This document shows, piece after piece, positions 3,315-31,679 of a stretch of 31,679 bases of DNA. The notes beneath the pieces were generated by a model. That model saw only the letters and a program-made list of their open reading frames with translations, was not told the DNA's origin and made no database searches. The stretch is from a virus. The stretch is from positions 1 to 31,679 of the IMG/VR virus record IMGVR_UViG_3300042691_036497; one strand, given 5' to 3'. Each line of letters opens with the position of its first letter. The stretch's first letter is position 1. Made by a program: the position numbers and the translations under genes.

Positions 3315-3341
3315 GTCAGTCAGGTCACTCAGGTCAGACGG
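3315..3341. repeat. 9-nt tandem repeat array (GTCANNNNG)
   Basis: Three consecutive 9-mers: GTCAGTCAG, GTCACTCAG, GTCAGACGG. On the minus strand the array contains TGA in more than one frame and supplies the stop codons of both overlapping methyltransferase frames (3329-3331 and 3334-3336). It fills the junction to the next gene. The same GTCANNNNG unit recurs near 4548, 5851, 7480, 13272, 28043 and 30887. Confidence 0.8.
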
Positions 3342-4516
3342 CGGAAAAGATGGGCAAAAGCTGCCGCAGCCTGGAGAGCCACCACGCCGTTGCCTCCGCA
3401 CCGAAGCTGGTCGGGGCGGGCTGCGTCCAGTGCCACGGCCACCCCATCAGCCAGCACACAAAGCCCGGATTCAATCGCCGGGGCAAGGTGAGGGGCTCCG
3501 GCGAGGATAGGGGCCCAGGCTCCGAAATCGTCGGGACCAGGGGCAAAGATTCCGCCACGTCCGAAAGGTTCGCGCCTCGGCGTGAGGCCTCCGAGCGGTA
3601 AAAGGTCGTGCCCAGTATTTCCATGCCGCGGCCCGCTTGCGTGTCGGAGGTCCGAGGCGTCGGCCACTGCGCCGCCTGCGCTGGCAGGGGCTTCCCGCCC
3701 GCTCCAAAGGCCATGTTCGGCCCGCCCTTCTCGCCATCGCTCGCCCTCGGCGTGCCCCACTGCGCCGCCTCCGCGCTCAAATGCTTCCCATGCTGGCCGG
3801 CTGCGGCGGTCGGGGTCGTCTTCACCGTGCGGTTCGTGCTCTCGCTGGCCGTGGGGCTCGGCCACTGCCGCGCCAGCCCGTTCAGCGTCGGACGCTCCGC
3901 GCCCTTCGCTCCCCGGTCCCGCTGATAGGAGCCTTGTGCTTCGTTCGCCCGGCAGGTGGACCAGGATGAAGACACGTTCCCGCCGATGGCTTGCGCCCAC
4001 GTCGCTCGCACGGACGAAGAGCGGGTCTTCGATCTCGTAACCCAGAGCCGCCAGCGAGTCGCCAAATCGACGGAACGCCCCGCTCGTGACCCATTGAGGG
4101 ACATTTTCGAGGCAGACCAGGGCGGGCGCACACTCGGAGACGATGCGCAGCGCATGGGGGAGAGGTCCATCCCCCTTCCCATAGCTTCGCTCGTCTCGCA
4201 GGCCTCGCCGCTTCCCGGCGGCGGAGTAGGGCTGGCAGGGCAGCCCGGCGGCAAAGAGGTCACAGTGACCCCACAGAGGGCGGGCGTCCAGATCTCGGAA
4301 GTCGCCACAGAAAACAGGCGCTGGCTCCAGGCTCTGCTCTTCCATCCGGGCCAGGAGCACGGCTGCCGCGTAGGCTTCCCTTTCAGCGAAACCCAAAACC
4401 CGCGGCCAGCGCCCGGTGACGTGCTCAAAAGCGAGCTTGACGGCGAGGGCGAGCATGCCAGTCCCGGAGCAGAGGGAGAGCAGGCCAGGGCGGAGAGTTG
4501 AGGAGGAAGCAGCCAC
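3329..4516 (-). CDS. DNA (cytosine-5) methyltransferase
   Basis: 395 aa from GTG at 4516 (a TTG at 4540 inside a heptamer array gives 403 aa; the only nearby ATG, at 4518, is in another frame). Numbering from the TTG, C5-methyltransferase motifs are in order: motif I SLCSGTGML (22-30), catalytic PCQ loop GLPCQPYSAAGKRRG (99-113, nucleophile C102), ENV (145-147), RRERVFI (186-192) and the C-terminal GGNGVVALQAA (382-392). It transfers a methyl group to cytosine, presumably to protect phage DNA from restriction or mark it. The long stretch between motifs VIII and X is the likely target-recognition region; its sequence (AVADASDLRHASG and similar) is typical of phage enzymes. The same DNA also encodes, in the +1 frame, a different methylase-type C-terminus (see the overlapping entry). 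It follows the wHTH gene by about 50 nt of repeat linker. Confidence 0.88.
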   Translation of the reverse strand: MAASSSTLRPGLLSLCSGTGMLALAVKLAFEHVTGRWPRVLGFAEREAYAAAVLLARMEEQSLEPAPVFCGDFRDLDARPLWGHCDLFAAGLPCQPYSAAGKRRGLRDERSYGKGDGPLPHALRIVSECAPALVCLENVPQWVTSGAFRRFGDSLAALGYEIEDPLFVRASDVGASHRRERVFILVHLPGERSTRLLSAGPGSEGRGASDAERAGAAVAEPHGQREHEPHGEDDPDRRSRPAWEAFERGGGAVGHAEGERWREGRAEHGLWSGREAPASAGGAVADASDLRHASGPRHGNTGHDLLPLGGLTPRREPFGRGGIFAPGPDDFGAWAPILAGAPHLAPAIESGLCVLADGVAVALDAARPDQLRCGGNGVVALQAAAAFAHLFRRLT

Positions 4517-4518
4517 AT
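3334..4518 (-). other. Overlapping +1 frame with a second methylase-type C-terminal half
   Basis: This frame is open for 394 codons. Its N-terminal half is just a shifted reading of the methyltransferase. From about 3900 downward it becomes protein-like: RQWPSPTASESTNR, AAQWGTPRASDGEKGG, AAQWPTPRTSD, then LNPGFVCWLMGWPWHW near the end. Repeated 'W.TP..SD' segments followed by 'LNP.FV.WLMG.P.GW' are the usual C-terminal landmarks of another group of phage cytosine methylases. It stops within 5 nt of the main frame. It could be a relic of an old frameshift, an alternative product made by +1 frameshifting, or a switchable second specificity domain. The start is not defined. Confidence 0.45.
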
Positions 4519-4526
4519 CAGAAAAA

Positions 4527-4556
4527 GTTTCAGGTTTCAAGTTTCAGGTCAGTCAG
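4527..4556. repeat. Heptamer array GTTTCAR plus one GTCAGTCAG unit
   Basis: Units GTTTCAG (4527), GTTTCAA (4534), GTTTCAG (4541), then the 9-mer GTCAGTCAG (4548-4556). It occupies the linker between the wHTH gene and the methyltransferase, and on the minus strand contains the possible TTG start of the methyltransferase. Related heptamers occur at 8580, 9762 and 20111. Confidence 0.8.
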
Positions 4557-4566
4557 GTTAATGCAG

Positions 4567-4890: not shown

Positions 4891-4895
4891 GACAA

Positions 4896-4930
4896 TTTTC
4901 AGTTTTCAGTTTCCAATTCTCAGTTTTCAG
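4896..4930. repeat. Heptamer array TTTTCAG (5 units)
   Basis: Five contiguous 7-mers: TTTTCAG, TTTTCAG, TTTCCAA, TTCTCAG, TTTTCAG. Read on the minus strand it lies just upstream of the wHTH ATG at 4890, and its fourth unit contains the TGA stop (4920-4922) of the upstream Cys-rich gene. Four units in the same order (TTTTCAG, TTTCCAA, TTCTCAG, TTTTCAG) recur at 6975-7002, so the array itself, not only the unit, is shared between two junctions. Confidence 0.88.
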
Positions 4931-5162
4931 TCCCGCCAAAGGTGTTCTCCGGCATCGGAACCTCCGCCCCTAGGTGGGCGGGCCGCTCCAGCAGGTTCAG
5001 GGTTTGAAAGGTCCCCGCGCCGCTCTGGAGCTGGTAAAGCGCCCCACAGCATTCCGTGCGGAATTGAAGGGCATGGCCCGTCGTCACAAAGTCCGGCCAC
5101 CACTGGCCGCACACGCACTGCACCCCACGGAGGATGCCGCGATGACAAAGGAACTCGCTCAT
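4920..5162 (-). CDS. Small Cys-rich protein, possible zinc binding
   Basis: 80 aa from the ATG at 5162. Five cysteines lie in the first half, in the pattern C-H near residue 6, CVCG near residue 17, and CC near residue 38; a zinc-binding fold is plausible but no family is recognised. The start overlaps the stop of the upstream 44-aa gene as TGATG, a typical coupling arrangement. The stop codon falls inside the TTTTCAG heptamer array. Confidence 0.65.
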   Translation of the reverse strand: MSEFLCHRGILRGVQCVCGQWWPDFVTTGHALQFRTECCGALYQLQSGAGTFQTLNLLERPAHLGAEVPMPENTFGGTEN

Positions 5163-5296: not shown

Positions 5297-5967
5297 AGTC
5301 TCAAAGTCTCCTGGTCTGATTGTCTAGCCTTCGCCTTCTCCTGCCTCGCCGCCCGCTTCCGCTTGAAGCGGTTCGCGGCCTTCCCCCGTCCGGCGGCGGC
5401 GTTCGCGTTGTTGCGGAGGGTGAAAACCACGCTCCAGACCTGCTTCGCGTTCAGGTCCCGGAGGTGCGTGCCTTTGTAAAAGCGGCTGGCGATGGTCTGC
5501 GCCGCCTGCCAGCCCTGCCGCGTCTGCGACAGGTGCGTGCGCAGCGCATGGCGGGCGATCTCCAGGGCGGCCACTTCCGCCTTCTTCCGTGCCGCGGCAG
5601 CGGCGGCATGCTTCCGTTGGAGATCAAGGAAGTGGGCCTTGATAAGCTGGTAATGCCTCACACAGGCCTCCGAGATCGTGGGGCCGCCCGTGGCCTTCCG
5701 TGTCTCCGCCTGGCGCCAGGTCTCGAAGCAGGTGCCTTCCTCCAGGTCTCCCGCCTCGATCATCAGCCTCAGCGCCGCCTTCGCCACCTTCACGAGCTGC
5801 CACTTCGCCTCATTGTCCAGCGGGCGGGAGAGCCCCCGCTCGCTCGCCGGGTCAATCCGGTCAGCCTTGTCAATCCGGTCCGCCTCCGCCGCCGCCGCCA
5901 AGGGCGTGGCGTAGCTCGTCACCTGGGCGGTGGCGGCAGCGTGGGCGTCTGGATCGAAGGGGAGCAT
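5293..5967 (-). CDS. Unknown phage early protein with helical basic C-terminus
   Basis: 224 aa, Ala/Arg/Lys-rich and largely helical. No catalytic motif is seen. The N-terminal region contains RIDKADRID, encoded by in-frame GTCANNNNG 9-mers (5851-5886). The middle (about 110-150) is a long Ala/Lys/Arg helix, possibly coiled coil. The segment LNAKQVWSVVFTLRNNA (about 175-191) precedes a basic tail ending KARQSDQETLRL. Its place among early genes, between Gam-side genes and small coupled proteins, is where some Mu relatives carry gp16/GemA, but GemA landmarks are not visible. The ATG follows a pyrimidine-rich GTCTCCCC-type linker on its own strand. Confidence 0.68.
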   Translation of the reverse strand: MLPFDPDAHAAATAQVTSYATPLAAAAEADRIDKADRIDPASERGLSRPLDNEAKWQLVKVAKAALRLMIEAGDLEEGTCFETWRQAETRKATGGPTISEACVRHYQLIKAHFLDLQRKHAAAAAARKKAEVAALEIARHALRTHLSQTRQGWQAAQTIASRFYKGTHLRDLNAKQVWSVVFTLRNNANAAAGRGKAANRFKRKRAARQEKAKARQSDQETLRL

Positions 5968-6006
5968 GGCGGGGGAAGAAGAGGGGGAGACAATGAGACC
6001 GGGGGA

Positions 6007-6394: not shown

Positions 6395-6420
6395 CCTTTG
6401 CGGGAAATCTCTCCCACTGA

Positions 6421-6448
6421 GCACTGGGCACTGAGCACTGAGCACTTG
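6421..6448. repeat. Heptamer array GCACTGA (4 units)
   Basis: Units GCACTGG, GCACTGA, GCACTGA, GCACTTG, preceded by a partial CACTGA at 6415. It lies just downstream of the Gam stop on the minus strand, in the linker to the next gene. This unit is unrelated in sequence to the other arrays but has the same 7-nt period. Confidence 0.8.
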
Positions 6449-6454
6449 GGATCT

Positions 6455-6964
6455 TCATGCCTTTGGGCTCCCTTCCATGTCGAGTTCGATGAAGAAGTCC
6501 TCGCTGGTCGTCATCTTCACGCCAGCGGCCACCAGAAAGACTTCGTGATCCTTCCAGTGCTTCTTCATGGCCTCCTTGTCCGGGGCCTCTTTGGTGCGGA
6601 TGAAAAGCTCCTGGAGCTTCTTCGAGGCCTCCTTGAGCTTGGCGAGAACGCCCTTGGCACCGCCGGCCTTCTTGGTGAACTCGATGGCTCCGCCGTTGCT
6701 GCGGTAGCCCAGGACATGGCCTTCGAGCGTGAAGCTCTTGGTCTTGCCTTTGAGCAGGTCCTTCCGGCGGGCATCCAGCCAGTCCCGGATCTGCTCCGCC
6801 AGCTCTTTCTCCTTGGCGGCATGCTTCGTGATCTCCGGCTCATGCCGGTCCTTCACCTTTGCCAGCTCGGCATTCAGCTCGGCGGTCAGGGATTGCTGGA
6901 GCGTCCGCTCCCGGCGCATGCAGGCCAGGGCGGCGGTAACTTGGTCGAGGGATTCGAGTTTCAT
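6455..6964 (-). CDS. gam: Gam-like host-nuclease inhibitor
   Basis: 169 aa. It matches the Mu Gam family, which binds DNA ends and shields linear phage DNA from host exonucleases. Visible landmarks: a long N-terminal coiled-coil (about 1-55, including LNAELAKVKDRHEPEITKHA), the transition IRDWLDARRKDLLKGKTKSF (about 58-77) followed by the GHVLGYR strand, and a C-terminal 'AAGVKMTTSEDFFIEL' ending typical of the family. Length is close to Mu Gam. It sits between the MarR-like gene and small early genes, downstream of the MuB-like ATPase, as expected for a Mu early operon. Confidence 0.88.
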   Translation of the reverse strand: MKLESLDQVTAALACMRRERTLQQSLTAELNAELAKVKDRHEPEITKHAAKEKELAEQIRDWLDARRKDLLKGKTKSFTLEGHVLGYRSNGGAIEFTKKAGGAKGVLAKLKEASKKLQELFIRTKEAPDKEAMKKHWKDHEVFLVAAGVKMTTSEDFFIELDMEGSPKA

Positions 6965-6974
6965 GGGTATTCAA

Positions 6975-7002
6975 TTTTCAGTTTCCAATTCTCAGTTTTC
7001 AG
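6975..7002. repeat. Heptamer array TTTTCAG (4 units)
   Basis: Units TTTTCAG, TTTCCAA, TTCTCAG, TTTTCAG, the same order as in the array at 4903-4930. It fills the MarR-like/Gam junction and carries the TGA stop of the MarR-like gene (6999-7001). Two junctions sharing the same multi-unit array suggests copying of whole arrays rather than independent slippage. Confidence 0.88.
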
Positions 7003-7479: not shown

Positions 7480-7515
7480 GTCAGTCAGGTCAGGGGTGTC
7501 AGTCAGGTCAAAAAA
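7480..7515. repeat. 9-nt tandem repeat array (GTCAGTCAG)
   Basis: Four units: GTCAGTCAG, GTCAGGGGT, GTCAGTCAG, GTCAAAAAA. It fills the 46-nt junction between the ATPase stop and the MarR-like start. The unit is the same as at 3315 and 4548. Confidence 0.8.
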
Positions 7516-8559: not shown

Positions 8560-8595
8560 GGGTCGGTTGCGGGGAAAAGGTTTCAGGTTTCAGGT

Positions 8596-8862
8596 TCAGA
8601 GGGGCGGCATGCAGGCCTCAATGCTGGCCAGCTCGGCTTCGATCTCGGCCAGCGTCTTCCGCCCCTCTGCATCGGCAGCCAAGGTTTCAGCCAGGCGGGC
8701 ACTCAGGGTGCGGTGGCCCATTTGGACCTCCGCCAGATGGACAAGCAGGCGGGTCCGCTTATCCCCCAACTCCTGGAGGCGTTTGAAATCGTTTTCCTCG
8801 ATCACGCGAGGCGTGACGGCTTTCGGTGCAATGGCGGAACGGGTGTTATTTGGTCGTTTCAT
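8596..8862 (-). CDS. Small coiled-coil protein
   Basis: 88 aa. A basic N-terminus (MKRPNNTRSAIAPKAVTPRV) is followed by a nearly continuous charged helix (about 22-85) with heptad-like spacing, ending IEAELASIEACMPPL. No family recognised. It lies between transposase and ATPase and could be a transposition accessory protein, but nothing in the sequence proves this. GTTTCAG heptamers (8580-8593) separate it from the ATPase start. Confidence 0.65.
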   Translation of the reverse strand: MKRPNNTRSAIAPKAVTPRVIEENDFKRLQELGDKRTRLLVHLAEVQMGHRTLSARLAETLAADAEGRKTLAEIEAELASIEACMPPL

Positions 8863-8894
8863 GGGTCGGTTTGTCGGTTTGTTTGTCGTTTTGG

Positions 8895-9126: not shown

Positions 9127-9169
9127 GGCGGGGAGGGGGAGACTTGGAGACAGGGAGAGGGGGAGAGGC

Positions 9170-12234: not shown

Positions 12235-12260
12235 AAGGTCAGAAGTCAGAGGTGAGAGGT

Positions 12261-13298
12261 TCAGCTCCACGTGGCCGGTTCATCCGCCGCCGCCAGCGCC
12301 TCGGCCAAAGCCAGGCGAAACTCCGGCGTCATGTCCGCCTTCACGCGGGCGGTCAGCAGGCGCTGGGCCTTGAGCCGCTCCTCGGCGTCCCAGCTCGTGA
12401 AGGCCTTAGAAAGGCGGACGAGCTGGCTCAGGGGAGCGTCGAGGTGGTGGAAGCCCGTCTGGGCCTTCGGCTTGCCACCCGTGGCGTCACCCCCGGCGAT
12501 GCCCGCCAGGATGCCGCCCAGGCCCGCCCCGCCCCAGATGAGGTGTTCATACTTCTCCCGCTTCGCGGCGGCCTCGATGGCCTCCGGGCTGCTCGCCGCA
12601 TGGCCGGGGGCATAAAAGGCCCGGTAAAGGGCCACCGCTTGATCCACCGTGTCAGCCGAAACGCCCAAGCGACGCCCCAAAGTCGATGCGTTCAAAACTC
12701 CGATTGAATCGGAGTTTTTGGAAGGGCGTCCTTCACCTGCCTCGCAAACCTGCGGATGCTGGCACACGCCCAGCCACGCCCGCTGCCCCTTGGTCCAGTG
12801 ACGACGACCGATCACGCTGGCCTCAATGATCTGCATGGCCTCGGCTTCCGAGACCTCAATGAGCGGCACCTTCTGACCTCTGACTTCTGACTTCTGACCT
12901 CTGGCCTCTGCATTGTCATCCACCCACTCCAGCCGGTGCCTGCCATCCACCGCCACCCAGCGGCGGCCTTGGCGGAAGGCCTTGATCGGCTCCACAATAC
13001 CCAGATCATCCAGGCTGCTCCGCAGGGCATCGTGCTCCGCCATCATCTCCACGCCCTGCGCCTTGATCTCCGGCTTCGGGCTCGTGATGAACTTCGCCGC
13101 CACGTCCACCATCATCGGAACGATGGCGAGACGTGGATCAATGGTAATCAGCTCACGGCGCACCAGATGCACCGTCATCGTGCCCTTGCTCGCCCGATGC
13201 TGGGAGGCCTCGTGAACCTGAAAGGGATCGTTAAGGTGCATGTCGTCCGTGCGCCAGATGGCGTCCTTCCGGTCAGTGAGGTCAGTCCGGTCACTCAT
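12261..13298 (-). CDS. ParB-like nuclease-fold DNA-binding protein
   Basis: 345 aa. The central part is ParB/Srx-like: ALRSSLDDLGIVEPIKAF (about 90-107), RRWVAVDGRHRLEWV (about 111-125), and VPLIEVSEAEAMQIIEASV (about 144-162), with a downstream HTH around ASTLGRRLGVSADTVDQAVAL. The role is probably site-specific DNA binding, in regulation, partition or transposition. The N-terminus is odd: MSDRTDLTDRKD is encoded by GTCANNNNG repeats, and AIWRTDDMHLNDPF (13-26) closely matches the transposase active-site segment AIWCSDDMSLNDPF. Two further repeats are embedded in frame: a TTCTGAC array (EARGQKSEVRGQK) and a 23-nt palindrome (KNSDSIGVLN). Its ATG overlaps the upstream stop (ATGA). Confidence 0.78.
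   Translation of the reverse strand: MSDRTDLTDRKDAIWRTDDMHLNDPFQVHEASQHRASKGTMTVHLVRRELITIDPRLAIVPMMVDVAAKFITSPKPEIKAQGVEMMAEHDALRSSLDDLGIVEPIKAFRQGRRWVAVDGRHRLEWVDDNAEARGQKSEVRGQKVPLIEVSEAEAMQIIEASVIGRRHWTKGQRAWLGVCQHPQVCEAGEGRPSKNSDSIGVLNASTLGRRLGVSADTVDQAVALYRAFYAPGHAASSPEAIEAAAKREKYEHLIWGGAGLGGILAGIAGGDATGGKPKAQTGFHHLDAPLSQLVRLSKAFTSWDAEERLKAQRLLTARVKADMTPEFRLALAEALAAADEPATWS
12694..12718. repeat. 23-nt palindrome, copy 1 (inside ParB-like gene)
   Basis: Left arm AAACTCCGATT, single G centre, right arm AATCGGAGTTT, a perfect inverted repeat at 12695-12717 that extends by one A/T pair on each side. It lies within the ParB-like coding region, where it reads in frame. The same sequence occurs at 14096-14118 and, with two changes, at 14638-14660. 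Candidate protein-binding site (parS-like) or mobile palindrome. Confidence 0.8.
12871..12911. repeat. Heptamer array YTCTGAC inside the ParB-like gene
   Basis: Units TTCTGAC, CTCTGAC, TTCTGAC, TTCTGAC, CTCTGGC, and a partial sixth. On the minus strand it reads in frame as Gly-Gln-Lys-Ser-Glu-Val-Arg-type residues, inserted between the RRWVAVDGRHRLEWV and VPLIEVSEAEAM segments of the ParB fold. The same unit family occurs at 19295 and 23889. Confidence 0.8.
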
Positions 13299-14717: not shown

Positions 14718-15872
14718 ATGCCACAACCGGCCCCCCGCAAGCTGCCCACTTCCCTCTCCCTCCTCTGCCTCAGCGCCGGGGCGGTGGATCGTGCCAGTGG
14801 CGAGCTCCCGGAGCGGCTCCTCATTCTCCCCTGGGGCCAGCATGATCTGGGCAAGCGCGGCACCGCGCTTTGTAATGACTTCACCGTCGCTCTCTTTGCG
14901 GACGCGATGAAGGCCCTGAAGCTCAATGGCCCCGTGGCCCTCGACTTCAACCACAACAGCCTCCCTGGCCATGCCGCCTACCTGGCCGAAAAGGAACCCC
15001 GCCGGAAGGCCGCCTGGGGCACGCCCCTCGTCGTCCCTGGCGAGGGCATCTATTTGACCGCCCTCACCTGGACCCCCGAAGGCCGGGACGCCTTCCTCGG
15101 CGGCCACTTCCAGGACATTAGCCCCGTCATCTTCCGGGACAAGGCAAACCACGTCATCGCCATCCATTCGGCGGCTCTCTGCGATCACGGCGAGGTCGAT
15201 GGCCTCACCATCGAGGCCGCCACCGCCCCGCCCGAACTCCAGTCCGCCTTCGCCGCCCTCTCCAGTCTCCCCGTCTCCCCGTCTCAAAGTCTCCCAGTCT
15301 CAAAGTCTCCCAGTCTCCCTGTCTCCCCGTCTCCCACCACCCCACCCATGAAACCCGAAATCCTCGCGGCCCTGGCCGCTCTCCTCAAAGGCATGGACAT
15401 CGAACTGGCCGCCGAGCCGGACGATACCATGCTCGCCGATGCCCTCACCGCTGCCGCTGGCAAGCTGGACGACATGAAGGCCAAGCTCACCGCCGCCGCC
15501 GCCCCTCCTGAAAAGAAGGAAGAGGTCAAGCCGGATGCCCTCTCCGCCCAGATCACTGATCTGCAAACTCAGCTCGCCACGATCCGCGCCGAGAAAGACC
15601 AGGCTCGCCGCGATGCCCTCATGGCCGAGGCCATCCGCGATGGCAAGATCATCCCCCTCAGCTCCGACCTCTGGAACAAGGCCCCCGTCGATGTCTGTGA
15701 AGGCCTCGTCAAAGCCGCCAAGGCCGGCGAGGTGCCCCTCAAGAGCAAGATGCCCGAAGGCGAGCAAACCGAGGCCAAGCCCCTCGCCCTCTCCGCCGAG
15801 GTGATGAGCAACATGGGCCTCACTGCCGAAGACCTCGCCAAATACGGCCCCAAGGACGCCTCCGCCGCCTGA
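14718..15872 (+). CDS. Mu gpI-like prohead protease with fused scaffold
   Basis: 384 aa. Residues 1-180 resemble the Mu gpI protease: VALDFNHNSLPG (about 74-85), a segment GTPLVVPGEGIYLTALTWTP (about 99-118), then FQDISPVIF, and ending with AIHSAALCDHGEVDGLTIEA. This enzyme cleaves scaffold and head proteins during capsid maturation. Residues about 183-211 are a Ser/Pro linker encoded by nine GTCTCCNN octamers (15265-15336); because 3 x 8 nt is 8 codons it reads as an 8-residue period (SLPVSPSQ, SLPVSKSP, SLPVSPSP). The remainder is a helical, charged scaffold domain with its own internal ATG, as in Mu I/Z. No Shine-Dalgarno precedes the ATG. Confidence 0.85.
   Translation: MPQPAPRKLPTSLSLLCLSAGAVDRASGELPERLLILPWGQHDLGKRGTALCNDFTVALFADAMKALKLNGPVALDFNHNSLPGHAAYLAEKEPRRKAAWGTPLVVPGEGIYLTALTWTPEGRDAFLGGHFQDISPVIFRDKANHVIAIHSAALCDHGEVDGLTIEAATAPPELQSAFAALSSLPVSPSQSLPVSKSPSLPVSPSPTTPPMKPEILAALAALLKGMDIELAAEPDDTMLADALTAAAGKLDDMKAKLTAAAAPPEKKEEVKPDALSAQITDLQTQLATIRAEKDQARRDALMAEAIRDGKIIPLSSDLWNKAPVDVCEGLVKAAKAGEVPLKSKMPEGEQTEAKPLALSAEVMSNMGLTAEDLAKYGPKDASAA
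15265..15336. repeat. Octamer array GTCTCCNN, 9 units, inside protease/scaffold gene
   Basis: Nine contiguous 8-mers (last two bases CC, AA, CA, AA, CA, CT, CC, CA and so on). It reads in frame through the protease-scaffold linker and ends 11 nt before the internal scaffold ATG at 15348, the same position relative to a start codon as in the intergenic copies. Confidence 0.9.
15348..15872 (+). CDS. Nested scaffold protein (Mu Z-like) from internal start
   Basis: 174 aa starting MKPEILAALAALLKGMDIEL, same frame and stop as the protease. Composition is helical and charged with a coiled-coil-like middle (LSAQITDLQTQLATIRAEKD) and a short C-terminal capsid-binding-like helix. In Mu the scaffold Z is made from an internal start in gene I. 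Here the internal ATG is preceded by an octamer array just like separate genes in this window, which supports independent translation. Confidence 0.65.
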   Translation: MKPEILAALAALLKGMDIELAAEPDDTMLADALTAAAGKLDDMKAKLTAAAAPPEKKEEVKPDALSAQITDLQTQLATIRAEKDQARRDALMAEAIRDGKIIPLSSDLWNKAPVDVCEGLVKAAKAGEVPLKSKMPEGEQTEAKPLALSAEVMSNMGLTAEDLAKYGPKDASAA

Positions 15873-16620: not shown

Positions 16621-16673
16621 TCGCCACCGCTCCACCCCTCCTCCACTCCACCCATCCCTGACCCCACTCCTCC

Positions 16674-17637: not shown

Positions 17638-17646
17638 CTTCTCCCT

Positions 17647-17686
17647 GTCTCCAAGTCTCCCCGTCTCCTGGTCTCCCAGCCTCCCC
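17647..17686. repeat. Octamer array GTCTCCNN, 5 units
   Basis: GTCTCCAA, GTCTCCCC, GTCTCCTG, GTCTCCCA, GCCTCCCC, ending 8 nt before the ATG at 17695. It lies just after the terminator. A three-unit version at 18246-18272 abuts the next gene start at 18273. Confidence 0.88.
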
Positions 17687-18709: not shown

Positions 18710-18764
18710 TCTCTCCCTCCCGCCGTCCTTCCTCATTCCTCATTCTGGTTTCGTCATTCCCACC

Positions 18765-19184: not shown

Positions 19185-20077
19185 AAACGCTCCTTTTCCT
19201 CCTCGCTTCGCTCGTCGCACAGCCGCAGAGCCTCAGAGCTTCAGAGCCTCAAAGCCTCAGAGCTTCAGATCCGCAGAGCCGCAGAGTCTCTGTCCTCTGC
19301 CCCCTGACATCTGACCTCTGCCCTCTGACCTCTGCTCTCTGCCCTCTGACCTCTGCCATGGACTCCGCCACCATTCTCCAGGCCGTGGAGGACTACCTCC
19401 AGCCCCTCCTCGCCGCTGAAAAAGGCCTCCTCACCGTGGCCGAGACCGAGGAGGACGCCATCGAACTCCTCGCCAATGGCCCCGAGAAATGGCGCGTCAT
19501 CCTCACCATGGACGGAGACGAATCCGCCGAGGAAAACAACCCCGCCGGTCTCGTCAAAGGCACCCTCGTCGCCTGGGTGCAAGCTCCCAAAGGCATGGAG
19601 GCCAAGCCAGGCAAAGGCATCCACCGCAGCGGCACCAACGGCAGCCCCAGCTTCATGACCCGCCTCCACTGGGTCATTCGCAAGCTCCGCCTCATGCAGC
19701 TCGTCCACGTCGAGGTGGCCTGCCAGGGCCTCGAATACAAAGGCTGGAACTGGCTCAAATTTGAAGACACCGCCGCCTTCCGCACCGCCCGCGCCCGCTT
19801 CGAGGTCCTCTTCGCCCACGACGATCCCGCCACCGATCCCGATGGCACCGACCCCATCGTCCTCCCCTCCGCCTTCCGCATCACCGGGGCCGCTGCCGAG
19901 TTCTACACCATCAGCCTCAGCGGCACCGCCCACGGCCGCGTCCCCCGCTTCGAGCCTGGCCCCGATGACCCCACCGGCACCGCCACCGGCTACGCCCTCA
20001 CCTCCGCCCAGGCCGAGTTCTACACCGTCGCCTTCGACGGCCAGCCCCACGGCCGCATCCCCCGCTTCGAGGCCTAA
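19181..20077 (+). CDS. Mu gp37-like tail completion protein with repeat-encoded leader
   Basis: 298 aa from the ATG overlapping the gp36-like stop; a shorter form would start at 19358 (239 aa, MDSATILQAVEDYLQPLLAA). The core (about 60-210) fits a gp37/minor tail type protein by position and length. The first 14 residues (MKTLLFLLASLVAQ) look like a signal peptide; residues 15-58 are encoded by an octamer array then a heptamer array. In the heptamer array the in-frame units (1st, 4th, 7th) all read TGC, never TGA, although most other units are TGA, which hints that the long frame is kept open. The C-terminus carries a duplicated segment: AEFYTISLSGTAHGRVPRFE and AEFYTVAFDGQPHGRIPRFE. Confidence 0.62.
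   Translation: MKTLLFLLASLVAQPQSLRASEPQSLRASDPQSRRVSVLCPLTSDLCPLTSALCPLTSAMDSATILQAVEDYLQPLLAAEKGLLTVAETEEDAIELLANGPEKWRVILTMDGDESAEENNPAGLVKGTLVAWVQAPKGMEAKPGKGIHRSGTNGSPSFMTRLHWVIRKLRLMQLVHVEVACQGLEYKGWNWLKFEDTAAFRTARARFEVLFAHDDPATDPDGTDPIVLPSAFRITGAAAEFYTISLSGTAHGRVPRFEPGPDDPTGTATGYALTSAQAEFYTVAFDGQPHGRIPRFEA
19218..19357. repeat. Octamer array AGAGCCTC followed by heptamer array CCTCTGM
   Basis: About eight 8-mers (AGAGCCTC, AGAGCTTC, AAAGCCTC, AGATCCGC and similar, roughly 19218-19286), then about nine 7-mers (CCTCTGC/CCTCTGA type, 19295-19357). The second array ends exactly at the alternative ATG (19358). Two unrelated unit families of different period are joined in one linker. Confidence 0.85.
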
Positions 20078-20132
20078 CTCGTCTTCCTCCTACTCCTCCT
20101 CCCCGGCTCTGGTTTCAAGTTTCAAGTCTGCC

Positions 20133-22493: not shown

Positions 22494-22498
22494 TCCCC

Positions 22499-22533
22499 AA
22501 ATCAAAAATCCCAAATCATAAATCGTAAATCCC
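22499..22533. repeat. Heptamer array AAATCNN, 5 units
   Basis: AAATCAA, AAATCCC, AAATCAT, AAATCGT, AAATCCC, ending exactly at the ATG at 22534. It fills nearly the whole junction after the tail fibre stop. AT-rich, unlike any other array here. Confidence 0.92.
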
Positions 22534-22917
22534 ATGTCCTCCCCCATCAAAAACATCGGCGGTGCCTCCATCTCCTTCGGCACCTGTGAACTCGGCACCA
22601 CCTTCGGCCAGGTGGAGTCCGCCAGCCTGAAACGCGTGGTCGAAGAAATGGGCATCCCGGATTGCTTCGGCGGCTTCCAAGCCTACCTGCTCATGAACCC
22701 CGGCTATGAGTTCGAGCTCACCGCCATCTTCCCCAGCACCGCCGCCCTGCCCGTCGAGGGAGACCCCATCACCTTCCCCGGCGCAGGAGTCATCGGGAAC
22801 ATCATCACCTGGTCCCTCGCCTGGGAGCAGAAAGGCCAGCGCAAGCTCCAGATCTCAGCCAAGCACTGGGACAGCATCGGCTCCAATCCCGCCGTCACGA
22901 CGCTGAACCCGGCCTAA
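22534..22917 (+). CDS. Small tail tube-like protein
   Basis: 127 aa. Beta-rich composition with NIGGASISFGTCELGTTFG, TAIFPSTAALPVEGDPITF and a last strand set around ITWSLAWEQKGQRKLQISA. It is shaped like a small phage tail tube or tube-associated protein; the assignment rests mainly on position, directly before the frameshifted chaperone gene and the tape measure. A long hairpin follows the stop, consistent with higher expression than downstream genes. Confidence 0.55.
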   Translation: MSSPIKNIGGASISFGTCELGTTFGQVESASLKRVVEEMGIPDCFGGFQAYLLMNPGYEFELTAIFPSTAALPVEGDPITFPGAGVIGNIITWSLAWEQKGQRKLQISAKHWDSIGSNPAVTTLNPA

Positions 22918-22920
22918 AAT

Positions 22921-22993
22921 CCTCCTCCTACTCCTCCTCTTACTCCTCCTCCCGCGATCCGGGAGGAAGAGAAAGAGGAAGAGGAGGAGAAAG
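22921..22993 (+). terminator. Long near-perfect hairpin after the tube-like gene
   Basis: Left arm 22921-22954 (CTCCTCCTACTCCTCCTCTT and onward to CCTCCCG) pairs with right arm 22960-22993 (CGGGAGGAAGAGAAAGAGGA and onward) over 34 positions with about five mismatches and a CGATC loop. The innermost 8 bp are perfect. It could reduce read-through to the chaperone and tape measure genes. It appears to derive from a CTCCTCCT-type repeat array copied in inverted form. Confidence 0.65.
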
Positions 22994-23012
22994 ATTCCAA
23001 ACCACCGCCCCC

Positions 23013-23834
23013 ATGCAACCGACCCCTCCCAACCTCCCTCCCATCACCGAGCGGGAGATTAGCTTCCACGAGGCCCTCGCCGGCATCGACGCCCGCGAGA
23101 AAGCCCAGGTCTCCGGCGGCCCCCGCCACGCCCTCCGCGCCCTCGTCCACGCGGCGGAAACGTTCAACGTTGAACGTTCAACGTTGAACGTTCAAAGTTC
23201 AACGTTGAAGGGCCTCCCCCTTCGCTCGGACGACCTCCTCGTCACCCTCTGCCTCGGCCTCCATGCCGAGGCCTTCGGCACCGATCCCCGCGCCGAATGG
23301 GCACACGAAAGCACCGCCACCCGCATGCGGGCCATCGCCGCCCTGGCCTTCCTCTTCACCACCCCCGGCCGCGCCTACACCCTCCTCGATGCCGCCACCG
23401 ATCCCGCCGCCTCCGAGGAGCAGCGCCAGGCCGCCCGCCGCGCCTATCGAAATGAGGTCACCGCCTTCGCCGCCGACTTCGGCCCGGGCGAGATCGAAAC
23501 CCTCACCCGCCATCTCCTCAAGCTGGCGGGCTTCCACCCCCAGGCGGATGCTGAGGAGGCCGCCTCCCCCGCCGCGGGGGAGCCTCTCCCTCCTTCGCCC
23601 CCGGCGCGGAGCTGGTGGCGGGGCCTGGTCCAGCGTGTGGCTGGGTCTTGGCTTATGTCGAGACGCTGGCATCGGAATACCAGCTCCCCCTCGCCAGCAT
23701 CTTCCGCCTGCCCTTCGCCGCCGGTCTCGCCCTCCTCGAAGCCCGCGCCTGCCGCCTCCACCCCGGCCACGGCCTCAGCTACATCGACCGCGCCATCGTT
23801 TCCGCCCGCAACGCCACCCGCCGCCGCCTCCTGA
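23013..23834 (+). CDS. Tail assembly chaperone, frame-0 product
   Basis: 273 aa in the starting frame (MQPTPPNLPPITEREISFHE). The first 190 residues look like real protein: LLVTLCLGLHAEAFG, RMRAIAALAFLFTTPGRAYT, ETLTRHLLKLAGF. After about residue 190 this frame becomes Ser/Pro-rich and non-protein-like, while the -1 frame becomes protein-like. It lies between a tube-like gene and the tape measure, the usual place of the lambda G/GT or Mu gp41-type chaperones that use -1 frameshifting. A GTTSAAC heptamer array (23162-23210) is read in frame as FNVERSTLNVQSSTLKG. If no frameshift occurs in vivo, the long frame-0 tail is simply translated. Confidence 0.65.
   Translation: MQPTPPNLPPITEREISFHEALAGIDAREKAQVSGGPRHALRALVHAAETFNVERSTLNVQSSTLKGLPLRSDDLLVTLCLGLHAEAFGTDPRAEWAHESTATRMRAIAALAFLFTTPGRAYTLLDAATDPAASEEQRQAARRAYRNEVTAFAADFGPGEIETLTRHLLKLAGFHPQADAEEAASPAAGEPLPPSPPARSWWRGLVQRVAGSWLMSRRWHRNTSSPSPASSACPSPPVSPSSKPAPAASTPATASATSTAPSFPPATPPAAAS
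23162..23210. repeat. Heptamer array GTTSAAC, 7 units, in coding sequence
   Basis: GTTCAAC, GTTGAAC alternating, with GTTCAAA and GTTGAAG variants. Units are near-complementary to each other, so the array can fold on itself. It lies inside the chaperone gene and keeps the frame on both sides. Confidence 0.92.
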
Positions 23835-23890
23835 CCACCCACCGCCTCGTGACCGCAGAGCCTCAGCGCCGCAGAGGTCAGAGCCTCTGA
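23555..23890 (+). other. -1 frame extension of the tail chaperone
   Basis: The -1 frame is open from 23555 (after a TGA at 23552) to 23890. From about 23615 it reads WVLAYVETLASEYQLPLASI, FRLPFAAGLALLEARACRL, LSYIDRAIVSARNATRRR, clearly protein-like. The window for the shift is 23555 to about 23620; a run of five G at 23576-23580 (codons GCG GGG GAG) is the best slippage candidate, though not a classic X-XXY-YYZ heptamer. Product would be about 290 aa. An authentic frameshift mutation or sequencing error would look the same. It stops in the first unit region of the next heptamer array. Confidence 0.6.
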
Positions 23891-23937
23891 CCTCTGACTT
23901 CTGACCTCTGACTTCTGACTTCTGACCTCTGACCTCC
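23889..23937. repeat. Heptamer array GACYTCT, 7 units
   Basis: GACCTCT, GACTTCT, GACCTCT, GACTTCT, GACTTCT, GACCTCT, GACCTCC, ending exactly at the tape measure ATG (23938). TGA occurs once per 7 nt, so the array closes all three frames; it supplies the stop of the -1 chaperone frame at 23888-23890. Confidence 0.92.
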
Positions 23938-25518
23938 ATGGCCAACGACCTCCGCTACTCCCTCGGCCTCGACGGCTCCAAATTCGACGGAGCTGTCTCG
24001 AAGTCCCTGGCGGGCATCCAGGGCCTCGGCGGAGCCCTTGCCGCGCTTGGCGCCACGGGGGCCTTTCTCTCGCTTCTCAAGGAGGGATTCGAGTTCAATA
24101 AAATGATGGGGGATGCGGAGAGCGGCATCGCCAACGTCCTCGCCAAATACAAAGGCCTCAATGCGGAAGCGGCCAAAGGGGAAGCAGCCAAGGCCATGGA
24201 CCAAATCCGGGAGCTGGAACCTAAAGCTGCCGGCACGATGGAAGACCTTGTCCAGGGATTCACCGCCACACTGGCGGCCTCTCAAGCCGCGGGGCTCTCG
24301 GTGGAGCAAAACATCGACCTCGTCGGGAAATTCGCCAATGCGCTCGCCAACACAGGCACCCCGGCAGACCAACTCGCCCAGGAAATGCGGTCGATTATCA
24401 CCGCGAACATTGGCGCGGATTCCTCACTGGCCCGCACGCTCAATTTGACCAATGAGATGGTAACGACCGCCCGTGATGCCGGAGAGCTTTACCCCTTCCT
24501 TGTGGGCATCATCGGCCAGCTCGGCGAGGCGGGAGACACCGCCACCGTTGCCTTCACCAGCCTGCTAAGCGCCATCAAGGCCGCCGCTGGGGCTCTGGCC
24601 AAAGGCCTTTTCGATCAAGCCGTCGAAGGCTCCAAAAACCTGACCGAGGCCATCAAGGAAAACCAGTCCTCGTTTGAGGCCATGGGCCAGTCCCTCGCTA
24701 CGATCACCACCGGAGCTCTCACCCTGTTTGCAGGCGTCAAAAGTGTCATGGAAGGGCTTGGTGCCACCGCCGCTGTCATTGACGATGTTTTCCGCAATGG
24801 GACCTCCTGGAGTGATGCCTGGGCCAATGCCCAAAAGGTCCTCCAAGCCGAAATCGACAAGACCGCCGAAAAAGCAGGTAACGCCAACAAGCAACTTCCC
24901 GGACCCAATGGTCCCGAGGCGGCCCCCACCGGCAAAAGCGGCTCCGGCGGCGGGGGCAAGACCGCCCAGCAAATGCAGCAGGCACGCGAGCTGCTCCTCA
25001 TGGAGGTGGCCGCTGCCGATGCCGCCGCCCGAGGGCAGGACAAAAAAGCCGCCGCCCTCCGCCGTGAGCTGGACATCCGCCGGGACATGCAGCGCATCAT
25101 CGAGCAGACCGGAGCCTCCGAAGAGCAGGCCCGCAAGCTGGCCGAGCGCCTCAACCCCGAAGTCTCCACCCGCGCCGATGGCCGCCGGAAGATCAAGGGC
25201 GTCCAATCCTCCCAGTTCATGGGCAGCGCCGGGGGCGGTGGTCTCGACCAGTTCCACAAAATGCAGGAAAAGCGGGAGGTCACCACCGCCGAAATGGAAG
25301 CCACCCGCAAAGCCCGCGGCGGCGGCCGTGGCCTGCCCGTGGGCCAAAGCACCGGCTTTGTCCCTGCCTTCCCCGCCTTCCCCCAGCCCCAAAAACAAGC
25401 CGCCGCCGTCCTCTCCCAGCCCGCCACCGCCACCGCCAAAGACAGCGCCGCCGGCGGCAATGCCCTCACCTTCCTCAAATCCATCGACGAGTCCCTCAAG
25501 TCCCTCAAAGCCGCCTAG
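23938..25518 (+). CDS. Tail tape measure protein
   Basis: 526 aa. N-terminus LGLDGSKFDGAVSKSLAGIQ is typical of tape measures. A hydrophobic helix GLGGALAALGATGAFLSLLK (about 30-49) and a second around ITTGALTLFAGVKSVMEGLG (about 257-276) are visible; the rest is Ala/Glu/Lys-rich helix. A Gly-rich break (KSGSGGGGK) is near residue 337, followed by helical then Pro-rich C-terminal parts. By the usual 1.5 A per residue this would set a short tail of about 80 nm (estimate). The TAG stop is formed with the first octamer of the following array. Confidence 0.82.
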   Translation: MANDLRYSLGLDGSKFDGAVSKSLAGIQGLGGALAALGATGAFLSLLKEGFEFNKMMGDAESGIANVLAKYKGLNAEAAKGEAAKAMDQIRELEPKAAGTMEDLVQGFTATLAASQAAGLSVEQNIDLVGKFANALANTGTPADQLAQEMRSIITANIGADSSLARTLNLTNEMVTTARDAGELYPFLVGIIGQLGEAGDTATVAFTSLLSAIKAAAGALAKGLFDQAVEGSKNLTEAIKENQSSFEAMGQSLATITTGALTLFAGVKSVMEGLGATAAVIDDVFRNGTSWSDAWANAQKVLQAEIDKTAEKAGNANKQLPGPNGPEAAPTGKSGSGGGGKTAQQMQQARELLLMEVAAADAAARGQDKKAAALRRELDIRRDMQRIIEQTGASEEQARKLAERLNPEVSTRADGRRKIKGVQSSQFMGSAGGGGLDQFHKMQEKREVTTAEMEATRKARGGGRGLPVGQSTGFVPAFPAFPQPQKQAAAVLSQPATATAKDSAAGGNALTFLKSIDESLKSLKAA

Positions 25519-25604
25519 TCTCCCCGTCTCCCCGTCTCCCCGTCTCCTAGTCTCCCCGTCTCCTAGTCTCCCCGTCTCCCCGTCTCCCCGTCTCCAAGTC
25601 CCCC
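25518..25604. repeat. Octamer array GTCTCCNN, 10 units
   Basis: Ten contiguous 8-mers (endings CC, CC, CC, TA, CC, TA, CC, CC, CC, AA) then GTCCCCC, abutting the ATG at 25605. The longest array in the window. Two CCTAGTC units contain in-array TAG codons. Confidence 0.95.
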
Positions 25605-26846: not shown

Positions 26847-26905
26847 CCGCCTCGTCACTCTGGGTCCGTCATTCTGGTTTCCTCATTCTGGTTTCGTCAT
26901 TCCTC

Positions 26906-28553: not shown

Positions 28554-28561
28554 GCCTCCCC

Positions 28562-28617
28562 GTCTCCCCGTCTCCCCGTCTCCCCGTCTCCCAGTCTCCC
28601 CCTCTCCCAGTCTCTCC
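28562..28617. repeat. Octamer array GTCTCCNN, 7 units
   Basis: Three GTCTCCCC, then GTCTCCCA, GTCTCCCC, CTCTCCCA, GTCTCTCC, ending 3 nt before the ATG at 28621. Confidence 0.92.
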
Positions 28618-28620
28618 GCC

Positions 28621-28878: not shown

Positions 28879-28936
28879 CTCCCCTCCATTCCTCCATTTT
28901 CAGTTCCTCCCTTCTCAGTTCCACCATTCCACCGCC

Positions 28937-29131: not shown

Positions 29132-29406
29132 CGCCCCTTTGTGGCGCGGTCGAGGGATGCCTGAAGCCGCAAGGCCCAGGCGGGTTTCGTAGTGGTTCCC
29201 CGAATGCCATCCCTTCACCGCCCCGCAGCCCGCCAGATCCGTGATTCGTCCCACGATCTGGCAGCGGCGGGAGGCCTGAAGCCGCAAGGCCCAGGGTCCG
29301 GGTTTTCCTGCTTTCCCCGGTCGCTCACCTCCCGCCGCTCTCTTTCTCCCTGTCTCCAAGTCTCCCCGTCTCCAAGTCTCCCCGTCTCAAAGTCCCCTCT
29401 TCTCCC
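29132..29406. other. 275-nt structured intergenic region
   Basis: No gene is seen. It contains an exact 22-nt direct repeat (29159-29180 and 29274-29295, core CTGAAGCCGCAAGGCCCAGG), an inverted repeat GCCAGATC/GATCTGGC (29232-29239 and 29255-29262), and a perfect 12-bp inverted repeat AGCGGCGGGAGG/CCTCCCGCCGCT (29263-29274 and 29328-29339) enclosing 53 nt. AGGGATG/CATCCCT also pair (29152-29158, 29208-29214). An octamer array GTCTCCNN (29352-29391) follows, ending before the ATG at 29407. A structured RNA or a compound mobile repeat are both possible. Confidence 0.6.
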
Positions 29407-29583: not shown

Positions 29584-29587
29584 TCCC

Positions 29588-29731
29588 ATGGACACCTCCC
29601 GCCAAATCCTCAACGAACTCGAAAAAGCCATCCTGGAAATGAAGGCGGGACTCTTCACTCGCCGCGATTTCACCCGCCGAGACCGCCGCGCCCGCCAGTC
29701 CTGGTTCCTCAAACGCCGCCGCCTCGGCTGA
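29588..29731 (+). CDS. Very small basic protein
   Basis: 47 aa, N-terminal helix (MDTSRQILNELEKAILEMKA) followed by a very basic tail (FTRRDFTRRDRRARQSWFLK). Starts 4 nt after the holin-like stop. Unknown function; may be a small lysis regulator. A TCATTCGTCATTC-type repeat separates it from the endolysin. Confidence 0.5.
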   Translation: MDTSRQILNELEKAILEMKAGLFTRRDFTRRDRRARQSWFLKRRRLG

Positions 29732-29764
29732 TTCCTCATTCGTCCTTCCTCATTCGTCATTCCC

Positions 29765-30214: not shown

Positions 30215-30244
30215 CTCCTTGACCAGGCCTTGACCCCTCCCCGC

Positions 30245-30913
30245 ATGAAAGCCGTCGGAAAAATCGCCAACCTCCCCGCCCGCATCCGCGAGGCCCTCAA
30301 CCGTCGCCTCCACGACGGCCAGCCCGCCTCCGTCATCCTCCCCTGGCTCAATGCGGTCCCCGAGGTCATTCAGGTCCTCAACGAACGATTCAACGGCGAG
30401 CCCGTTTCCGACCAGAACCTCTCCAACTGGCGCACCGGCGGCTTCCTCAAGTGGCAGACCGAATCCGCCGAGATCGAGAAGACCAAAGACCTGGCCGCCT
30501 TCTCCGCCGAGCTGGCCGAGGCCGCCGGGCTCGGCATCTCCAAGGCCGCCAAAGCCCTCGCCGCCGGCCGCATCATGGCGAAGCTCCAGACCGCCGGGGA
30601 GGACATGGACCTCGAAAGCCTCCTCGGCCTCACCAAGGCCGCCAAAGACCTCCACGCCGCCGACATCGCCGAGGCCGGGCTCAACCTTGACGAACGCAAG
30701 GCCGACCAGAAGGACAAGGAGCTGGACCTCAAAGAGCGCCAGTTCCAGCTCCGCTTCGTCGCTGGCTTCGAGGAGCACGCCAAAAACGCCGAAGCCATCC
30801 GCCTCGCCACCGATCCCACCGTCCCCAAGGAAATCAAAACCGAGCAGCTCCGCCTCATGCTCTTCGGTCCGCGTCCCGCCAGCCCCGTCAATCCTGTCAC
30901 CCCGGTCAATTAG
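30245..30913 (+). CDS. Mu gp27-like (DUF3486) terminase small subunit
   Basis: 222 aa. It matches the gp27/DUF3486 pattern: KIANLPARIREALNRRLHDG at the start, an HTH around VIQVLNERFNGEPVSDQNLS then NWRTGGFLKW (about 38-78), followed by long helices with FSAELAEAAGLGISKAAKAL and a charged coiled coil. It recognises phage DNA for packaging. The C-terminus PVNPVTPVN is encoded by GTCANNNNG repeats, and the TAG stop lies within a repeat unit (GTCAATTAG). Confidence 0.84.
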   Translation: MKAVGKIANLPARIREALNRRLHDGQPASVILPWLNAVPEVIQVLNERFNGEPVSDQNLSNWRTGGFLKWQTESAEIEKTKDLAAFSAELAEAAGLGISKAAKALAAGRIMAKLQTAGEDMDLESLLGLTKAAKDLHAADIAEAGLNLDERKADQKDKELDLKERQFQLRFVAGFEEHAKNAEAIRLATDPTVPKEIKTEQLRLMLFGPRPASPVNPVTPVN

Positions 30914-30919
30914 GTCCTC
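30887..30919. repeat. 9-nt repeat array GTCANNNNG
   Basis: GTCAATCCT, GTCACCCCG, GTCAATTAG, then GTCCTC directly before the ATG at 30920. The array contains the end and stop codon of the small terminase and the whole spacer. Confidence 0.85.
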
Positions 30920-31679
30920 ATGGAGCCCCCGAAACCCATCATCCAGTTCACCCCGCCCCAGGAGGAAGTCTTCTGGAGCACCCACCGCATGCTCTGGATG
31001 CTCTGGCGTCGCCAGTTTGGGAAATCCTTCCTCTTTGGCTCCAAGGCCGTGGACCGCTGCCTCCAGATCCCGGACCACATGGTCTGCTTCGTCTCCGGCT
31101 CCATCCTCATGGGCGGGGAAATGATCGAAAAGGAGGCCCTCGTCTGGCGGAAGCTCCTCGATGCCCAGCGCGTGGCCGCCCGTGCCGCCGGGAAGAAGAT
31201 GACCACCAATGGCGAGGACGACAAAGGCCACACCCTCGACGTGGACGCCATCGCGGACCTCTTCGAGCACGCGAAGCTGGAATGCACGATCTGGCATTCA
31301 AACACCAATTACTCCCGCACCCGCGTCCTCAGCCCCAACCCCCAGACCGCTCGCGGCTTCTCCGGGGACGTGCTCGGGGATGAGGTCTGCTTCTGGCCGG
31401 ACTTCCGCGCCACGATGGACGCCGTGGAGCCCATCATCTCCCGGAATCCCGGCTGGATCATGTGGCTAGCCTCCTCCCCGCCCGCCGATGACAGCCACCC
31501 CACCTATGAGCTGCTCCTGCCTCAGCAGGACGCCTGGCCCGCCAATATCCGGGGAAACTGGTATCGCACGAACACCGAGGACGGTTCCGAAGGCTACCCC
31601 GTCCACCGCGTCGATGCCCATGACTCCCTCCTCGCCGGCGTCCCCCTCTACTCCCTGAAAACCGGCCAGCCCATCCCCG
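30920..31679 (+). CDS. Mu gp28-like terminase large subunit, cut by window end
   Basis: 253 residues visible, truncated on the right. N-terminal Walker A-like RRQFGKS (30-36) and Walker B-like VLGDEVCFW (DE about 154-155) after SPNPQTARGFSGD, the usual terminase ATPase arrangement. The nuclease domain lies beyond the window. It packages phage DNA into the head. In Mu, the portal, F and G genes would follow; here F-like and G-like genes are found on the opposite strand at the left end of the window. Confidence 0.88.
   Translation, partial: MEPPKPIIQFTPPQEEVFWSTHRMLWMLWRRQFGKSFLFGSKAVDRCLQIPDHMVCFVSGSILMGGEMIEKEALVWRKLLDAQRVAARAAGKKMTTNGEDDKGHTLDVDAIADLFEHAKLECTIWHSNTNYSRTRVLSPNPQTARGFSGDVLGDEVCFWPDFRATMDAVEPIISRNPGWIMWLASSPPADDSHPTYELLLPQQDAWPANIRGNWYRTNTEDGSEGYPVHRVDAHDSLLAGVPLYSLKTGQPIP

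Follow-up and report, generated by a model that had tools for sequence, protein, structure and literature searches.

Tandem 7- and 8-nt arrays at the gene junctions of a Mu-like phage: probable STRR-type repeats kept as unstructured leaders

The virus record IMGVR_UViG_3300042691_036497, whose 31,679 bases are referred to here as the window, is a Mu-like phage according to PHROG matches. Its gene junctions hold arrays of short tandem units, mostly of 7 or 8 nt, drawn from many unrelated words. How did such arrays come to lie at most junctions of one phage, and what would keep them there? Heptanucleotide repeats known as short tandemly repeated repetitive (STRR) sequences are found in cyanobacteria (Calothrix and others). 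We put at about 0.6 the probability that the window's arrays are of STRR type, spread by copying and slippage, and were retained in gaps as unstructured leaders. The explanation proposed is that STRR-type 7- and 8-nt arrays, with a vocabulary also present in Verrucomicrobia-type chromosomes, would have spread through a Mu-like phage in three steps.

Excess, placement and lineage of the arrays

A score cut-off of 12 was used to scan for arrays, with 50 dinucleotide shuffles and 50 block shuffles (120-nt blocks) as calibration. At this score or above, the window holds 11 period-7, 8 period-8 and 2 period-9 arrays, against 0.10, 0.08 and 0.02 expected from dinucleotide shuffles and 0.14, 0.06 and 0.10 from block shuffles. 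The predicted excess over shuffled sequence is thus borne out for periods 7 and 8 (about 0.1 expected for each). The period-9 excess is weak, with two arrays, and 9 is a codon multiple too. The same scan found no window arrays of period 10, 11 or 13; periods 14 and 16 appear as multiples of 7 and 8. A scan with a harsher mismatch penalty, which gave only 5 period-7 and 4 period-8 arrays, was superseded by the calibrated one. Tandem Repeats Finder (TRF) returned 77 rows at a score of at least 30, mostly of periods 7, 8 and 9 and their multiples, and every unit family listed in the original prediction is present in the window.

A TRF row of the 7/8/9 type overlaps the upstream 50 nt at 22 of the 38 curated starts, versus a fraction of 0.111 at random positions (P ~4e-12), in agreement with the claim of over twenty junctions. 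Many arrays span the distance from the upstream gene's stop codon to the next start, and some include that stop. Arrays had been said to end at or near the ATGs at 22534, 23938, 25605, 28621 and 30920. All five are plausible starts and the first four have an array within a few nt, whereas before 30920 there is just a loose GTCANNNNG series that gave no TRF row. Placement at junctions likewise holds for most junctions but not for every array, as seven lie within open frames of the curated gene map (2962-2990, 5851-5885, 9759-9790, 12870-12910, 15262-15336, 19216-19357 and 23159-23209). These in-gene arrays keep the reading frames open and lie where conservation is poor, for example in a loop of the ParB-like protein and in the linker that precedes a presumed internal scaffold start.

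Four syntenic relatives, two of them partial, were compared: viral contig G002 (IMGVR_UViG_3300013094_005466), the prophage of genome G086, two contigs of genome G198 and, less close, contig G227:C64. Their proteins are about 25-81% identical to those of the window. No period-7 or period-8 array at a score of at least 12 is found in G002, in 51 kb around the G086 prophage, in 23 kb of G198 or in 20 kb of G227. Gaps were compared only at junctions with seemingly adjacent neighbours, and genes missed between the anchors inflate some gaps of the relatives. The gap before the gene at 19358 measures 173 nt in the window versus 23, 2 and 2 in relatives, that before Gam 34 versus 4, and that before the gene at 28621 67 versus 18. 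Other gaps are little or no longer in the window, namely the one between the gene at 15964 and the major capsid protein (MCP) gene (53 versus 46), the one between the MCP gene and the gene at 17695 (112 versus 95 and 96), and the one between the tail gene and the gene at 22534 (40 versus 56). To summarize, the arrays are specific to the window lineage, and several gaps are longer where arrays sit. This lineage specificity, with the longer gaps, is the first of the proposed steps.

Copying, slippage and a shared vocabulary

Separate arrays have composite stretches in common; in the five best-matching pairs these measure 34, 30, 29, 29 and 25 nt. Within arrays, 133 of 740 20-mers recur more than 200 bp away, versus 24 of 29,859 outside. 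In a unit-order shuffle test the match is rare in five of eight pairs (P 0.005, 0.010, 0.013, 0.019 and 0.045), two of the five sharing one array. Since composite stretches of 25-34 nt are common to several arrays, several pairs have evidently been copied about and not solely born in place, and the arrays in general may have been. The original prediction had cited the copying of whole arrays against independent slippage, and its example (4903-4930 and 6975-7002) comes to 29 identical nt.

Slippage has left its signature in the arrays of genome G112, where runs of identical variant units are found, e.g., GGAGGGC followed by TGAGATG and CGAGATG. Among the 57 chromosomal arrays of G112, 18 have a complementary partner within 120 nt, where about 0.6 are expected; in the window this is true of 1 of 17, and that one is a quasi-palindrome. 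Inverted heptamer pairs of G112 lie at G112:C1 16061-16125, 35945-36016 and 174986-175061 and at G112:C3 15767-15850 (L185-L224). Their degenerate units agree across the arms, e.g., at 22 of 22 bases, and this matching suggests hairpin-templated copying. A case for templated synthesis from column-limited unit variation is not relied on, as slippage amplification and frame constraints suffice; the genome search patterns also had N at the variable columns, which weakens that argument. In the second proposed step, arrays or words would be copied between places and then lengthened, shortened and varied by slippage. The copying itself would presumably be ectopic template switching or conversion during replication.

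The words are not confined to the window. Four units of GTCTCC at 8-nt spacing were found in 16 of the order's 386 genomes, and the reversed-pattern control in 7. A chosen set of 60 genomes or records combined the 16 genomes positive for GTCTCC with 43 others and phage G003; there, TCTGACN (four units) was found in 6 (control 1) and CNTGAAA in 10 (control 3). TCTGAC 27-mers common to genomes G109, G112 and G059 were rejected as copied arrays. In G112 and G109 they lie within open frames of equal length, so the TCTGACN counts may partly reflect a conserved gene. Chromosome samples hold further phage words, as follows: ACCTCTG and AAATCAT in G112, ACTGAGC in G222, and AATGACG, near the phage word ATTCSTC, in G222 and G186. 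Period-7 arrays exceed chance in these samples, whose stretches had been taken without regard to arrays. Their density per 100 kb (score 14) is 28.4 in the window, 4.5 in G112, 3.3 in G222, 1.0 in G186 and 0.5 in G086; the last, carrier of an array-free relative, has only 2 such arrays in the 400 kb sampled. In a 1.41-Mb chromosome sample, from genomes picked for arrays or a related prophage and stretches not picked for arrays, matches are found for 45 of 737 18-mers within window arrays versus 50 of 30,008 outside. The GTCTCCNN array at 15262-15336 has 37 nt in common with G186, at a locus retrieved for its neighbouring GTCTCC array. The GTCTCC-family 30-mer GTCTCCCCGTCTCCAAGTCTCCCCGTCTCC occurs in two cyanobacterial genomes (Oscillatoriaceae M33_DOE_052 and Crocosphaera watsonii) and in a Verrucomicrobiales metagenome-assembled genome (L029, L030, L031, L032).

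Three relatives of the window, those in G086, G198 and G227, reside in the same order as G001, a Verrucomicrobiales bacterium, and the host is therefore probably of that kind. A search for the host by MuA found no relative in the genome collection, nor does the annotated phage collection contain a match to MuA. The copied TTTTCAG array offers no clue to the host either: its exact 30-mer was absent from viral_contigs, and the 23-mer core did not turn up in the 60 genomes or records searched. The words were seen in chromosomes of the searched order. On these sequence matches, the phage alone is not the source of the words, since they are chromosomal in Verrucomicrobia-type genomes.

The claim that such arrays belong to one phage does not stand. 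The largely unrelated phage G003 has several of the same families, with GTCTCCNN and CYTGAAA in common with the window. Among 79 viral loci (1.16 Mb, fetched by terminase or capsid similarity, some overlapping or duplicate, G002 included), 8 hold 13 period-7 arrays and none a period-8 array. Junction arrays with words of their own (AACYCTG; AGCTTTC and ATTCTTA; TTCGACC and AAATCCT) occur in the Mu-like phages L228, L230 and L236-L239, partly at junctions that also bear arrays in the window.

Start codons, predicted folding and competing accounts

The arrays had been placed where a Shine-Dalgarno site would normally be. This wording is misleading, as SD-like (Shine-Dalgarno-like) sites precede 2 of 38 window rows and, in the array-free relatives, 0 of 17 starts in G002, 3 of 20 in G086 and 1 of 11 in G198. 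The idea that arrays substitute for such sites was rejected on the same count.

Array starts are predicted to fold less than other starts. From -40 to +20 the mean is -2.4 kcal/mol at array starts, -10.2 at other starts and -15.8 in random 60-mers, although in this comparison and in the SD counts 3 of the 38 coordinates (F, g18246 and g29413) are not start codons. The leader-reversal test used corrected start coordinates and excluded g29413. Predicted folding becomes stronger at 18 of 21 starts when the array is reversed (mean from -15.0 to -28.1), and at all 21 when random phage DNA takes its place (mean -26.9). Shuffling the letters of the array leaves folding nearly unchanged (-17.1), so composition carries most of the effect. 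When the 30-nt leader is reversed, folding becomes stronger at 21 of 21 array starts; the controls give 48 of 88 for random coding positions and 4 of 7 for in-gene arrays. The orientation effect repeats in other Mu-like phages (10 of 11). The leaders of this phage group thus appear to be held unfolded by selection, with start-adjacent arrays following the rule. The orientation of these arrays is the one predicted to keep the start open, which is new here. In the third proposed step, at starts mostly without Shine-Dalgarno sites and with leaders predicted to be unfolded, start-adjacent arrays would be oriented to keep the start open. On this reading arrays stay in the gaps since they are tolerated there as unstructured leaders and probably work as such.

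Several results weigh against this reading of copied STRR-type arrays retained as unstructured leaders. Three of the eight array pairs do not go beyond unit-order shuffles (P 0.070, 0.36 and 0.415), no donor-recipient copy event was seen, and the reversed-pattern control for GTCTCC was not empty. Ordinary leaders also fold more strongly on reversal (15 of 17 in the window; 15 of 17, 15 of 20 and 9 of 11 in relatives). With ordinary leaders behaving alike, arrays may do no more than pass a filter, without adding function. In G112, chromosomal arrays near called starts have no orientation effect (9 of 17, P 0.18), and 9 of the 57 arrays lie in convergent gaps without any start. Within gaps, the start end is not significantly favoured over the stop end (start:stop 3:0, 7:4 and 2:1), and the idea of such a preference was dropped. 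These last counts come from an automatic gene caller that miscalls several window genes, so that some co-directional gaps look convergent or divergent; all other window counts use the curated gene map.

The best-surviving alternative, possible if doubtful, is that the arrays are neutral clutter. That is, slippage-prone repeats pile up where they are harmless, mainly in gaps, and their orientation reflects purifying selection on the start. The open frames of in-gene arrays, the presence of chromosomal arrays in convergent and stop-proximal gaps, the slippage-like blocks of identical variant units in G112 and the folding rule of ordinary leaders all agree with it. Array starts are nevertheless predicted to fold even less than other starts, with the reservation on three coordinates given above, and the common vocabulary and the copied composite stretches require more than slippage in place.

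It is improbable that the arrays are translational regulatory sites, each bound near the start by a post-transcriptional regulator as proposed for the Beggiatoaceae TAACTGA repeats. Their position next to ATGs and the scarcity of Shine-Dalgarno sites agree with the description in PMC4679880. Against this stand at least eight unrelated words at equivalent places in one phage, along with arrays inside genes and in chromosomal convergent gaps. Since many unrelated words occupy equivalent places, the arrays are not a sequence-specific signal.

We give as little credit to a dedicated mobile element or enzyme that moves arrays. Dispersed copies in both orientations and the excess of complementary partners in G112 would suit one; the window, with its single quasi-palindromic case, would not. 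No reverse transcriptase or extra transposase is among the PHROG and Pfam matches of the window, for which only part of the open reading frames (ORFs) was scanned, and no target-site duplication was noticed, although no systematic search was made.

Independent slippage at every junction, with no copying, also has little chance of being right. It can claim the slippage signatures and the three pairs within the range of the unit-order shuffles. It is contradicted by the few words that recur at many junctions, by the common composite stretches, by words that are common to chromosomes, and by the other vocabularies of related phages.

An assembly artefact is very improbable: the window is a single viral-collection record, repeats assemble poorly, and the arrays are indeed absent from relatives with clean junctions, which had been named as the sign of an artefact, but those relatives diverge strongly in protein sequence and keep the gene order, several of their gaps are shorter, in-gene arrays are in frame, and similar junction arrays recur in independent contigs.

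Individual arrays, known systems and meaning

By PHROG matches, the window encodes a Mu F-like minor head protein (748 to ~2289), a DNA methyltransferase (frame 3329-4540, minus), Gam (6455-6964), a MuB-type protein (7522-8559), a MuA-type transposase (9656-11620), a head maturation protease/scaffold (14718-15872), a major head protein (16674-17582), a neck protein, a head-tail adaptor, an endolysin and terminase subunits. At the methyltransferase locus two long frames overlap on one strand, and the frame starts at GTG 4516 or TTG 4540, within or just past an array.

The minus-strand arrays are as follows, with their source in parentheses where recorded. A GACCTGACT-type array at 3306..3336 (period 9, score 13; TRF row 3313-3337) lies between the methyltransferase stop and ATG 3303, and a CYTGAAA array lies upstream of GTG 4516 at 4527..4549 (TRF). 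The AACTGAA (TTTTCAG) array at 4893..4931 (scan) ends 2 nt from ATG 4890 and has its 29 nt in common with 6967-7005 (scan), an AACTGAA array before the Gam ATG at 6964 whose first unit holds the upstream gene's TGA. On the 3' side of the Gam stop, a CACTGAG array with no strand assigned (6415..6446; scan) repeats a word also found in genome G222. Further arrays precede ATG 7475 (CTGACTGACC, 7480..7510; TRF), the MuB ATG 8559 (CCTGAAA, 8578..8596; TRF and scan), ATG 8862 (ACAAACCG, 8865..8882; TRF) and ATG 9126 (TCTCCCTGTCTCCAAG, 9133..9168; scan), the last with the unit order of 17640-17685 and 29345-29405. A CTCTGAC-type array (12236..12260; TRF) ends at ATG 12234. A TCTGACY array at 12870..12910, in frame within the ParB-like gene, has 34 nt identical to part of the 23884 array. 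The N-terminus of the ParB-like protein (AIWRTDDMHLNDPF...; 13298-13170, minus) resembles part of the relatives' MuA (45% over 31 residues) and, by eye, the phage's own MuA.

On the plus strand, the GTCTCCNN array at 15262..15336 is in frame within the protease/scaffold gene, just 5' of a presumed internal scaffold ATG at 15348. A weak CCACTCC-type array (16624..16657; TRF and scan) precedes the MCP gene, a GTCTCCNN array (17640..17686; TRF and scan) ATG 17695, and an ATTCSTC array (18726..18762), with 25 nt in common with 26853-26905, ATG 18765. In the 5' part of ORF 19181-20077, a period-8 AGCCTCAG array (19216..19287; scan) is followed by a period-7 CTCTGMC array (19288..19357) that ends at ATG 19358 and has stops only in the other two frames. 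A GTTTCAA array (20112..20127; TRF) precedes ATG 20133, the start of a tail-fibre-like protein (20133-22493) with a C-terminal GDSL lipase/acylhydrolase domain (Pfam PF00657). An AAATCNN array extends from the upstream stop to ATG 22534 (22496..22534; TRF and scan). The junction before ATG 23013 is filled by an inverted polypyrimidine/polypurine pair of period 6/12 (22918..22996, unstranded), with 37-nt arms that are 84% complementary. A quasi-palindromic GTTSAAC array (23159..23209; scan) is in frame within ORF 23013-23834, and a CYTCTGA array (23884..23936; scan) ends 1 nt from ATG 23938. A GTCTCCNN array (25518..25604; scan) reaches from the upstream stop (TAG 25516-25518) to ATG 25605, and a CGTCATTCTGGTTT array (26853..26902; TRF and scan) precedes ATG 26906. 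The GTCTCCCC array before ATG 28621 (28556..28618; scan) matches a G-quadruplex motif on the minus strand, as does GTCTCCCC near 15335. The last two are a GTCTCCNN array (29345..29405; TRF and scan) and an ATTCSTC array before the endolysin ATG at 29765 (29731..29763; TRF and scan), a related word being present in G186 and G222.

The parallel with cyanobacterial STRR sequences drawn by the original prediction is apt. Both are short tandem 7-mers of several dispersed families per genome, largely intergenic, and the window's excess of head-to-tail 7-nt units is of this kind. The arrays differ in being carried by a phage, at most junctions, with 8-mers beside the 7-mers and an orientation tied to predicted start folding. 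As period-8 arrays are present and STRR units are of 7 only, the arrays are a variant, not a strict member. REP/REPIN elements, which have palindromic units, are likewise short, dispersed and intergenic; the arrays here are head-to-tail 7- and 8-mers, not palindromic, and only the one window array has a complementary partner. Nor do unique spacers separate the units, as in CRISPR.

PMC4679880 describes the Beggiatoaceae TAACTGA repeats as 7-nt tandem units a few nt upstream of starts with few Shine-Dalgarno sites, patchy across phyla, with shorter repeat-free gaps in some relatives. The window agrees in its start-adjacent arrays and few SD-like sites. It differs in having many words, a phage location and common in-gene arrays where the Beggiatoaceae have a single word and a chromosome; TAACTGA itself was not searched as a pattern. 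The Calothrix STRR case is cited in PMC4692102, which reports the intergenic heptamers GGGAATC of Xanthomonas, some as inverted pairs, and GGGGA(C/T)T of Nostoc. These share with the arrays an intergenic position and, in some GTCTCCCC arrays, G-quadruplex potential. According to that text they were not found on plasmids and generally lack a tie to mobile elements, whereas the arrays are mostly unpaired and on a mobile genome. The open-access literature contained chromosomal heptamer repeats but no recognisable phage with junction arrays, subscription journals being largely outside the search, and no paper joining Verrucomicrobia with a heptanucleotide.

Heptamers near starts have been described, in PMC4679880 and PMC4692102, as single words in chromosomes, with no settled origin or role given there. 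This compact phage combines many words with syntenic relatives free of arrays and cousins that bear them, and so offers filled and empty versions of the same junctions. The spread of arrays becomes testable in this way, as does their mode of action, whether through specific sequence or through remaining unfolded, with a bearing on translation starts without Shine-Dalgarno sites in GC-rich bacteria. A bolder idea, which we advance only tentatively, is that the arrays form a class of spreading DNA, copied between bacterial chromosomes and phages with no enzyme of their own, and that in phages without Shine-Dalgarno sites they become interchangeable, orientation-selected leaders for ribosome loading. 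If this were true, the vocabulary of each phage would be that of its host, and the patchy occurrence of the same words across distant phyla could be due to phages.

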